Source: Halobacterium litoreum
Lineage (GTDB): Archaea > Halobacteriota > Halobacteria > Halobacteriales > Halobacteriaceae
Reading direction: 5' to 3'
Assembly: GCF_021233415.1 (NCBI RefSeq)
Contig: NZ_CP089466.1
Location: forward strand, 558,001-622,000
Length of the DNA: 64,000 nt
The position numbers were made by a program, and so were the translations under genes. Within the stretch, counting starts at the first letter, position 1, and each line of letters opens with the position of its first letter. The notes beneath the pieces were generated by a model, which saw nothing but the letters and a program-made list of their open reading frames with translations, was not told where the DNA came from and did not search any database. This document shows, in pieces, positions 17,375 through 20,144 of this stretch.

Positions 17375-17382
17375 TATTTTGC
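17375..17382 (+). promoter_or_regulatory. TATA box of radB
   Basis: TATTTTGC sits 24-31 bases before the GTG at 17406. It supports that codon as the leaderless start rather than the ATG at 17379, which would lie inside the promoter. Confidence 0.65.
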
Positions 17383-17405
17383 GGGGGAAGCGCCAACTCC
17401 GGGTA

Positions 17406-18113
17406 GTGACCGACGACACCCACATCTCGACCGGCTGTGGCGCGCTCGACGACCTGCTGGGGGGCGGCGTCGAGCGCGGCACCGTCACGCAACTGTACGG
17501 GCCGCCGGGCGCCGGGAAGACGAACGTCGCGCTCTCGGCGGCCGTCGAGGTCGCCACCGACGGCGGCACCGCGGTGTACGTCGACACCGAAGGCATCTCC
17601 GTCGAGCGATTCGACCAACTGCTCTCCGCGCGCACCGACGACCCCGACGCCGCCGCCTCGCGCATCGTCGTCTCCGAGGCCCACGACTTCGAGGAGCAGG
17701 CCGAAGCCGTCCGCGACACCGAGGACTTCGCCGACCGCGCGGACCTCGTCGTCCTCGACTCTGCGACCGGCTTCTACCGCCTGCGCCGGGGGGACGACGA
17801 GGACGCCGGCGACGCGCTCCGCAGAGTCGCCGACCAGGTCACGCACCTCCTCTCGCTCGCGCGCAAACACGACCTCGCCGTCGTCGTCACGAACCAGGTG
17901 TTCACGGACGTCGAGAGCGACAGCGACCGCGTCCGCCCGCTCGGCGGCCACACGCTCTCACACTGGACCGGCGCGGTCGTGCGCATCGACCGGTTCCGCG
18001 GCGGCAACCGCCGCGCCACGCTGGAGAAACACCGCGCCCGCCCGGAGGGCGAGCAGGCGCGCTTCGAGATTACCGACTCGGGCGTCGAGGGCGTCGAGAG
18101 CGACGCCTACTGA
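17406..18113 (+). CDS. radB: RadA paralogue, recombination mediator RadB
   Basis: This 235-residue protein is a RecA-fold core without the N-terminal HhH domain of RadA, as expected for RadB. It has Walker A GPPGAGKTN near residue 32, a Walker B strand DLVVLDSATGFYRL near 110, and the C-terminal region PLGGHTLSHWTGAVVRI typical of the family. RadB helps RadA in homologous recombination. The start is set by the TATA box. The stop codon directly abuts the stop of the convergent 63-residue membrane protein. Confidence 0.94.
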   Translation: MTDDTHISTGCGALDDLLGGGVERGTVTQLYGPPGAGKTNVALSAAVEVATDGGTAVYVDTEGISVERFDQLLSARTDDPDAAASRIVVSEAHDFEEQAEAVRDTEDFADRADLVVLDSATGFYRLRRGDDEDAGDALRRVADQVTHLLSLARKHDLAVVVTNQVFTDVESDSDRVRPLGGHTLSHWTGAVVRIDRFRGGNRRATLEKHRARPEGEQARFEITDSGVEGVESDAY

Positions 18114-18305
18114 CTACGGCGACGCCCGGAACTCGCCGTGTTTCATCCCGAGGAAGAAGGAGACGACGGCGAACGCTATCATCGACGGCAACACCATCAT
18201 GAACAGGGTGTCCGTCTGCATCACGTCCATCGCGGCGAGGCCGGCGATGCCCACGACCACGATGGCGACGAGCACGCCCACGGACCGAACGAAGTCGAAC
18301 TCCAT
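18114..18305 (-). CDS. Small two-helix membrane protein
   Basis: A 63-residue protein with two hydrophobic segments (GVLVAIVVVGIAGLAAM and LFMMVLPSMIAFAVVSFFLG) and a short polar tail. It is not recognised beyond that. A strong minus-strand TATA-like CCTATTTTGT at 18328-18337 sits 23-32 bases before the ATG. This argues for a real leaderless gene and for this start over the longer ORF. It is stop-to-stop with radB, with no gap. Confidence 0.75.
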   Translation of the reverse strand: MEFDFVRSVGVLVAIVVVGIAGLAAMDVMQTDTLFMMVLPSMIAFAVVSFFLGMKHGEFRASP

Positions 18306-18533: not shown

Positions 18534-18582
18534 TTTTTGCCGAGGGGGTGCGCGCTCTGCGCGTACCCCCGCAGCGCAAAAA
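18534..18582. repeat. Nested palindrome of haloarchaeal 3' type
   Basis: TTTTTGC (18534-18540) pairs with GCAAAAA (18576-18582). Inside them GGGGGTGCGCG (18544-18554) pairs with CGCGTACCCCC (18560-18570), with one G-U wobble and a five-base loop. The element starts six bases after the stop of the CBS-domain gene on the minus strand. It could act as a transcription terminator or 3' stabiliser. The preceding 200 bases (18320-18530) are gene-free and hold GCGAGCGTAGCGAGCGG-type short palindromes. Confidence 0.75.
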
Positions 18583-18587
18583 GTGGG

Positions 18588-19730
18588 TTACAGTTCGTTC
18601 AGTTTCCGCAGCAGTTGGCCTTCGTACTCTTCGTCGTGTTCGATGCCCTTGAGTTCGAGGACGTTGCGTTCGAGTTTGTCGAGGGCGACGTGGAACGCGT
18701 TGTCTGCGCCGTAGCCTTCGCCGGAGCCGGCGACCTGGCCCTTGTTGGTGCGGAGGCGAATCTGGGCCTGAATCAGGGGGGTGCCGCGGAGCTTCTCCTT
18801 GTGCTTGTGGAGGCGGACGTGGGCGTGGTGGACGTTCATCTCGCCGTACTTCGCGGCGACCTGTTCGATGCGCTCTTGGACTTCCTGTCGGGAGAGCGCG
18901 TCGAGCAGTTCGATGTTCGTAATCTGGACGTCGAGGTGCTCTTCTTCGGTGTAGGAGAGCGCGCGCAGCACGTCCGTCTTCGTGAGGATGCCGCCGACAA
19001 CGCGGTCGTCGTCGGCGGGCGTGACGACGACGCCGGAGTAGTCGTTGTCGAGCATCTCGCCGACGGCGTCCTTGACGCTGTCTTCGACGGTGACCGTCTC
19101 GACGGGGCTGGACATCTCGTCGTAGACGGGGAGGTCGAGCAGGCGCTCGATTTCGCCGCGTCGGTCGCCGCGGGTGGTCTTCTGGTTGTCGCGGACGACG
19201 AAGTCGACGATGTCGTGTCGGGTGACGATGCCGGTCAGGAAGCCGCTATCGTCGACCACGGGAAGGCGGGAGATGCCGTGTTCGCGCAGGAGATTGATGA
19301 CCTTCCCCATGGTGTCGTCCTCGGCGACGGTGACGACGTTCTCCGTGAAGATGTCGCCGACGGTGAGCGCGTCGAGGTTCTCCAGCACCGCTTCGAGGAT
19401 GGCGTCCTCGGTGACGACGCCCCAGAGGTTGTCCGCCTCGAAGACGGGCGCGATTTTCGTGCCGCCCTCGACGAGCATGCGTGCGGTCTCCCGCACGTCC
19501 TCGGTGCGGGAGATTTTCGGCGCGTCGGCGACGAGCGCGGCGACCTTCGTGTCGTCCTCGATGTGGGACTGGATGAGCTGTCGCTGCGTGATGACGCCCT
19601 CGTACTGTCCGGCTTCAGTGACGATGATGCCCTTCGGGTTCTCCTCCTCGAAGATAGAGCGGACCTTGCCCAACCGTTCCTCGGCTTCGACCTCGGCGTA
19701 GTCGTTCGTCGCGATGTCAGAGATATCCAT
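18588..19730 (-). CDS. Four-CBS-domain protein fused to a ribosome-hibernation-like domain
   Basis: This 380-residue protein has two CBS pairs: residues about 1-125 (MDISDIATNDYAEVEAEER, then KISRTEDVRETARMLVEGG) and 125-270 (VGDIFTENVVTVAEDDTMG, then YDEMSSPVETVTVEDSV). A C-terminal domain (275-380) follows with the HPF/RaiA layout (VQITNIELLDALSRQEVQERI, cited as a landmark, VHHAHVRLHKHKEKLRG, DNAFHVALDKLERNVLE). CBS pairs bind adenosyl nucleotides; HPF binds the small ribosomal subunit. Energy-sensing ribosome silencing is the inference. The upstream AATAAAGTTC resembles a TATA box. Confidence 0.85.
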   Translation of the reverse strand: MDISDIATNDYAEVEAEERLGKVRSIFEEENPKGIIVTEAGQYEGVITQRQLIQSHIEDDTKVAALVADAPKISRTEDVRETARMLVEGGTKIAPVFEADNLWGVVTEDAILEAVLENLDALTVGDIFTENVVTVAEDDTMGKVINLLREHGISRLPVVDDSGFLTGIVTRHDIVDFVVRDNQKTTRGDRRGEIERLLDLPVYDEMSSPVETVTVEDSVKDAVGEMLDNDYSGVVVTPADDDRVVGGILTKTDVLRALSYTEEEHLDVQITNIELLDALSRQEVQERIEQVAAKYGEMNVHHAHVRLHKHKEKLRGTPLIQAQIRLRTNKGQVAGSGEGYGADNAFHVALDKLERNVLELKGIEHDEEYEGQLLRKLNEL

Positions 19731-19838
19731 GGTCCTACACCCGGAACGACACGGACCAGCGTCTTGAACTTTATTGCGGCTCTCGCGGACTCGGAGCGCC
19801 GTCGTAGAGTTTTACCGGTGGGGTGCGTAGGCGCTGTC

Positions 19839-20144
19839 GTGCTCCCAGACGTCGGCGCGGCGTTCGGCGATTACACGTACCTCGCGACGGAGGTCGCGTT
19901 CGGCTCGCTCGCCGTCGCCTTGCTCTACCGCGCCGACGCGCTCCGTCGCGCGGCGACGACCGTCGCGGTTCTCTACCCCGTCGCGTACGTCTGGGACTGG
20001 TACACGCTCACTATCGGCGTGTTCGCAATCGAACTACGGACCGGCGTCGACCTCCTCGGCATCCCAATCGAGGAACACATCTTCATGGTGGTCGTGCCGG
20101 CGCTCGTCGTCGCGTTCCACGAGACGCTCCACGGCGAGAACTAA
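19839..20144 (+). CDS. Single lycopene-cyclase domain protein (CrtYc/CrtYd-like)
   Basis: A 101-residue membrane protein with three hydrophobic segments and the IPIEEHIFMV signature of heterodimeric-type lycopene cyclases (PxEE motif) near residue 78. The haloarchaeal CrtY that makes beta-carotene for retinal normally has two such domains in one chain. This one carries only one, so it may act as a homodimer, pair with another subunit, or have drifted in function. A GTTTTACC box about 30 bases upstream supports the GTG start at 19839. Confidence 0.8.
   Translation: MLPDVGAAFGDYTYLATEVAFGSLAVALLYRADALRRAATTVAVLYPVAYVWDWYTLTIGVFAIELRTGVDLLGIPIEEHIFMVVVPALVVAFHETLHGEN

Follow-up and report, generated by a model that had tools for sequence, protein, structure and literature searches.

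A four-CBS protein with an HPF/RaiA-type domain in Halobacterium litoreum, very probably a haloarchaeal ortholog of the ribosome hibernation factor HibA

The archaeal ribosome hibernation factor HibA was described in April 2026 in a cryo-EM study of P. abyssi ribosomes, whose depositions are the entries 9SR9, 9SRA-9SRF and 9T7H (PMC13324472). In the portion of that report available to us, the C-terminal domain of P. abyssi HibA occupies the mRNA/tRNA channel of the 30S subunit and the CBS module takes up three positions on the 50S subunit, with a loop between CBS3 and CBS4, the PTC loop, extending into the peptidyl-transferase centre. According to the same account, translation in extracts is inhibited by HibA, a T. 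barophilus deletion mutant had about 60% fewer 70S ribosomes and was delayed in regrowth, and the CBS module of the P. abyssi protein binds AMP with a Kd of 12 uM, ADP with 65 uM and ATP with 113 uM at a site located between CBS3 and CBS4 (PMC13324472). The family is further characterised by two insertions in the HPF domain that are specific to archaea, and by a CBS module that groups in a HibA clade separate from CM-1 to CM-6. A related arrangement has been described for HVO_2384 of Haloferax volcanii (D4GWN2), an acidic protein of 42.5 kDa in which tandem CBS domains precede a C-terminal domain resembling ribosome hibernation factors (PMC12607858), and another archaeal protein, Dri, is described as two fused CBS modules (PMC13324472).

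The gene hibA1 lies within a stretch of 64,000 nucleotides from Halobacterium litoreum, here called the window, and its features are collected in Table 1. The host genome is 2.7 Mb in size, and the genus also includes Halobacterium salinarum DSM 3754. The open reading frame runs on the minus strand from an ATG at 19730 to a stop codon at 18588-18590 and encodes 380 amino acids. A longer plus-strand frame at 18537-20144 (535 aa) was dismissed, as it lies antisense over hibA1 and is gene-like in its last part only, where positions 19770-20141 match Pfam Lycopene_cyc (E 6.5e-08). No promoter or terminator of hibA1 was identified, nor a sigma-70-like site, although the sigma-70 criterion is not meaningful for archaea. 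The first-pass annotation had offered the union of four CBS domains and an HPF-type ribosome-binding domain in one chain as a new suggestion. The architecture itself is well founded, being backed by profile, by predicted fold and by similarity over the full length to a homolog solved on the ribosome; the novelty is not, as such a fusion was in print by October 2025 for HVO_2384 (PMC12607858) and then again in the HibA report. HibA1 aligns with the P. abyssi HibA chain from residues 3-377 to 6-388 (phmmer, E 2.2e-51), and a family match (E <= 1e-20) was found in 141 of the 146 genomes sampled from the order, including all 122 good-quality ones, which places the four-CBS plus HPF architecture beyond chance. 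In a sample of 196 genomes from the phylum, 84 carry such a match at the same threshold. The gene belongs to a family already in print and is ordinary for haloarchaea.

Table 1. Coordinates of hibA1, its parts, its neighbours and the second copy (window positions unless a stretch is named)
Feature	Position	Strand	Basis
radB-like neighbour (Rad51/RecA family), convergent with hibA1	17379..18113	+	Pfam Rad51, E 6.3e-29
Small protein downstream of hibA1, DUF7333	18114-18305	-	Pfam, E 4.8e-27
hibA1, 380-aa HibA-family protein (four CBS + HPF/RaiA)	18588..19730	-	ORF, Pfam, P. abyssi HibA match, tree
HPF/RaiA-type domain and tail, residues 262-380	18591..18947	-	Pfam S30AE, AlphaFold2 models, fold matches, profile match
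CBS module CBS1-CBS4 in tandem, residues 1-261	18948..19730	-	Pfam CBS, fold matches
CBS4 T250-x-x-D253, putative adenylate site half	18972..18983	-	D in 90/90, S/T + D in 84/90 aligned rows
CBS3-CBS4 loop, about residues 178-201, equivalent of P. abyssi PTC loop	19128..19199	-	Length, low pLDDT 180-192
CBS3 T170-x-x-D173, putative adenylate site half	19212..19223	-	S/T + D in 90/90 aligned rows
HibA2 copy	L002:1405-2613, L102:4422-5630	-	402 aa, longer CBS3-CBS4 loop

The Pfam family Ribosomal_S30AE (PF02482) matches residues 268-361 of HibA1 with 22.9 bits (E 0.00015), just short of the curated cut-off of 23.7 bits, so that under Pfam's own rule the domain does not belong to S30AE even though the fold is common to both. 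Among 29 HibA-family members scanned, only five match this model at E <= 0.001, and a search of the whole genome with PF02482 at that threshold reported neither hibA1 itself nor a separate bacterial-type HPF gene elsewhere; an annotation based on Pfam only would therefore often miss the HPF domain. The absence of a separate PF02482 gene was counted in favour of the identity as HibA. With a profile made from the C-terminal domains of 29 family members, ten chains were matched: the two HibA-type chains come out on top (E 1.3e-35 and 1.2e-23), the next seven are HPF or S30/sigma-54-modulation chains (E 0.0056 to 0.39), and the last is one unrelated chain.

Predicted structure agrees with the profile. 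AlphaFold2 models of the full protein and of its C-terminal 119 residues, built on only 11 sequences and with a mean pLDDT of 80.0 and 80.1, respectively, both place the C-terminal elements in the order strand-helix-strand-strand-strand-helix (E267-271, H281-295, E300-314, E317-328, E331-340 and H342-361). The C-terminal domain was modelled in isolation because fold searches with the whole model were filled by CBS proteins and were uninformative on the HPF domain. With the isolated domain, all 22 Foldseek matches at E <= 0.001 were of the HPF/RaiA/protein Y type, and the same holds for the best 30 of the 50 matches listed by VIA-align (Z 8.1-12.5), the first rows of other kinds being a YcaO chain at Z 8.0 and double-stranded RNA-binding domains at Z 7.9 and below. 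The 9SR9 and 9L96 chains were absent from the best 50 matches of each of the four fold searches. HPF similarity, which the first-pass annotation had inferred from the order of sequence motifs and the family length, is accordingly present both by profile and in the modelled structure, and since the match to P. abyssi HibA, the 29-domain profile and the AlphaFold2 fold agree, the call is sound: as far as profile and model can tell, this is a real HPF domain that scores just under the Pfam threshold.

The N-terminal part is covered by four Pfam CBS stretches (E 8.6e-40). Residues 1-260 of the whole-protein model gave fold matches that included the M. acetivorans ribosome-bound protein SriD (9ZNG, Z 25.3), MJ1225 (Z 25.0) and Dri (Z 21.6), so that among the matches listed the module is nearest in fold to archaeal CBS proteins that are ribosome-bound or bind AMP. 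In CBS domains the ribose of adenylates is held by a T/S-x-x-D motif, and on this basis we take T170-x-x-D173 of CBS3 and T250-x-x-D253 of CBS4 to be the two halves of a putative adenylate site. The candidate aspartate is seldom found in CBS1 (8 of the 90 aligned rows, with T/S as well in just one) or CBS2 (23 rows, with T/S in 15). This pattern fits the published P. abyssi site between CBS3 and CBS4 and supports nucleotide binding by the haloarchaeal protein; adenylate, AMP best, probably binds HibA1 between these two domains. The pattern does not support nucleotide control of ribosome binding.

The loop between CBS3 and CBS4, where pLDDT is low at residues 180-192, is 24 residues long in this protein and separates two groups of haloarchaeal sequences. 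A second copy, HibA2, is encoded in the same genome outside the window (G000:C1:370424-371629, minus strand, 402 aa) and is 44% identical to HibA1. In a tree of 90 HibA-type proteins, rooted at the midpoint and with long branches flagged, a HibA1 clade of 39 rows that includes hibA1 (support 99/92), a HibA2 clade of 31 rows that includes 9L96 (99/94) and an outgroup of 14 rows (100/100) are recovered, with three rows from families f10 and f12 at the base of HibA2 and three extra copies from f14 and f6 on the HibA1 side. Over the same 90 rows the loop measures 24-25 residues in HibA1, 22-25 in the outgroup, P. abyssi included, and 36-49 in HibA2. By a hand count, at least two matches to a HibA2 query at E <= 1e-60 occur in 53 of the 146 genomes of the order, although in five of these (G029, G050, G065, G081 and G099) the second copy falls on the HibA1 side, three judged by the tree and two by identity; within the genus, HibA2 is present in two of ten genomes. 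HibA1 is nearly universal in haloarchaea and HibA2 patchy. The extra copies on the HibA1 side at L095, L096 and L097 are 52-55% identical to HibA1 and come from two other families of the order. Haloarchaeal paralogs are not mentioned in the available portion of the HibA report (PMC13324472), and a literature search that took in few subscription journals found neither the two-clade pattern nor the longer HibA2 loop in print. Beside HibA2 in this genome, a gene for an RtcB RNA ligase (L102:2950-4425, minus strand; Pfam RtcB, E 2e-156) starts within the last bases of HibA2 with a 4-base overlap, but RtcB adjoins HibA2 in only one of 30 loci examined with short flanks, so a HibA2-RtcB operon was rejected as a feature of the family.

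Homology, a predicted fold and conserved candidate nucleotide-site residues were observed in HibA1 itself, and it is very probable that hibA1 encodes a haloarchaeal ortholog of HibA and that the protein acts in the manner of its relatives. By analogy with the P. abyssi and T. barophilus proteins, we infer that HibA1 on the ribosome would block translation, that it would keep 70S ribosomes together and guard them during stress or stationary phase, and that an adenylate, preferably AMP, would sit between CBS3 and CBS4. Some caution applies to molecular detail: in haloarchaea the HPF domain carries a net negative charge, with a median of -3 in HibA1 against +1 in outgroup rows, so RNA contacts are not transferable from other HibA proteins without a test. 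That acidity, along with the S30AE score under the Pfam cut-off, is what might be expected of an orphan CBS protein with a C-terminal domain that only resembles HPF and has lost ribosome binding. This reading is extremely unlikely, as the predicted HPF fold is recovered by both Foldseek and VIA-align, the domain positions R54, G55, L58, E77, G80, E93, R94 and K100 (domain numbering) are invariant or nearly so in 29 diverse family members, and the gene is kept in every good-quality genome of the order sample.

Two further explanations were weighed. One holds that the timing of ribosome engagement and release is set directly by AMP or ATP bound between CBS3 and CBS4, which is the direct link from energy charge to dormancy proposed in the first-pass annotation. 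The candidate aspartates present in all 90 rows and the preference of the P. abyssi CBS module for AMP speak for such a switch. However, in the available part of the P. abyssi study native complexes showed no nucleotide, AMP left the distribution of ribosome-bound states unchanged, ATP added only one weakly populated state, and the authors report no clear effect of either nucleotide on ribosome binding (PMC13324472). The sensing half of the earlier proposal has thus gained ground and the control half has not; a direct switch appears doubtful, and in HibA1 a coupling of energy charge to dormancy is at present hypothetical. The other explanation takes RadB or RadA (and GINS in Thermococcales) as the main client of HibA, or as a store that releases HibA to ribosomes according to the AMP/ATP ratio. 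In a report accessible in part, the proteins that co-purified with Pab0961, which is P. abyssi HibA, included RadB, a Sir2-family deacylase and, with a moderate score, GINS23; the same report cites a personal communication that HVO_2384 binds RadA and RadB in vivo (PMC3820547). RadB is HVO_2383 according to the available part of another report (PMC7776575). HVO_2384 has also been tied to an inactive variant of the Pat2 acetyltransferase (PMC12607858), so that lysine acetylation is linked to HibA proteins in two separate reports. The HibA report itself mentions recombination partners in general terms, and the terms RadB, Sir2 and HVO do not occur in the portion available (PMC13324472). Genomic context points the same way in part, as radB lies tail-to-tail with hibA1 in 41 of 65 genomes from a non-random sample (gap 20-2542 bases, median 186), radB being not found within the stretch examined in the other 24. 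Against this, a lycopene-cyclase-like gene lies close upstream of hibA1 in 33 of 46 longer stretches, compared with 23 of the 46 for radB (15 of these stretches had been picked because their short flanks lacked radB), and the conservation of this unrelated gene indicates that gene order is kept in general and alone proves little. Moreover, convergent genes are not co-transcribed, no radB match was found near hibA in 15 outgroup stretches, nor beside HibA2 in any of 30 loci with short flanks, and both the HPF domain and the ribosome structures point plainly to the ribosome as the target. A primary role in recombination or replication, or storage of HibA on these partners, is therefore very unlikely, and the hibernation factor reading is retained.

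A broader and more speculative scenario would combine these elements in a two-part haloarchaeal system, in which HibA1 serves as a near-universal house factor whose release is perhaps coupled to RadB/RadA and to lysine acetylation or deacetylation, and HibA2 is an optional factor whose longer loop might grip the peptidyl-transferase centre differently. Taken as a whole this is distinctly unlikely, but if it were true, a single adenylate-binding protein would couple the shutdown of translation, and DNA repair as well, to energy state; likewise, if the contacts with RadA and RadB are real, the HibA family would tie ribosome dormancy to recombination. On firmer ground, sequence and predicted fold confirm that the HibA family is nearly universal among salt-loving archaea. 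As these include genetically tractable species, adenylate control of archaeal ribosome hibernation is testable there, and the split into HibA1 and HibA2 offers a natural comparison, the loop differing in length where P. abyssi HibA reaches the peptidyl-transferase centre.

Among known systems, the resemblance to Dri of Pyrobaculum and to SriA-D of M. acetivorans, whose CBS modules are found on archaeal ribosomes, is confined to the CBS module (Z 21.6-25.3), and in contrast to the two modules of Dri, HibA1 has one four-CBS module followed by an HPF domain. Bacterial HPF/RaiA (protein Y) has the fold predicted for the C-terminal domain of HibA1 (Z up to 12.5, with 18-20% identity, among the 50 matches listed), but to our knowledge the bacterial forms have no CBS module. 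The 406-residue PDB chain 9L96_a (9L96, 9L98, 9L9C, 9L9V) matches HibA1 with E 5.3e-72 and has the same domain order, but it belongs to the HibA2 clade and has the longer CBS3-CBS4 loop. The PDB names this chain only as 'CBS domain-containing protein' and the P. abyssi HibA chain as 'Dehydrogenase'; our literature search found no publication naming 9L96. HVO_2384 of Haloferax volcanii, with RadB at the neighbouring locus tag HVO_2383 and thus the gene order seen at hibA1, is a probable ortholog, judged from size and gene order. HibA itself (P. abyssi Pab0961/Q9UYR4 and T. barophilus TERMP_00697) shares the domain order, with four CBS domains followed by HPF/RaiA at the C terminus, and the P. 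abyssi protein is of the same loop-length class and carries the same candidate nucleotide-site pattern. The haloarchaeal protein differs from P. abyssi HibA in being acidic, with a pI of about 4.6, and in being frequently accompanied in haloarchaea by the second clade, HibA2.
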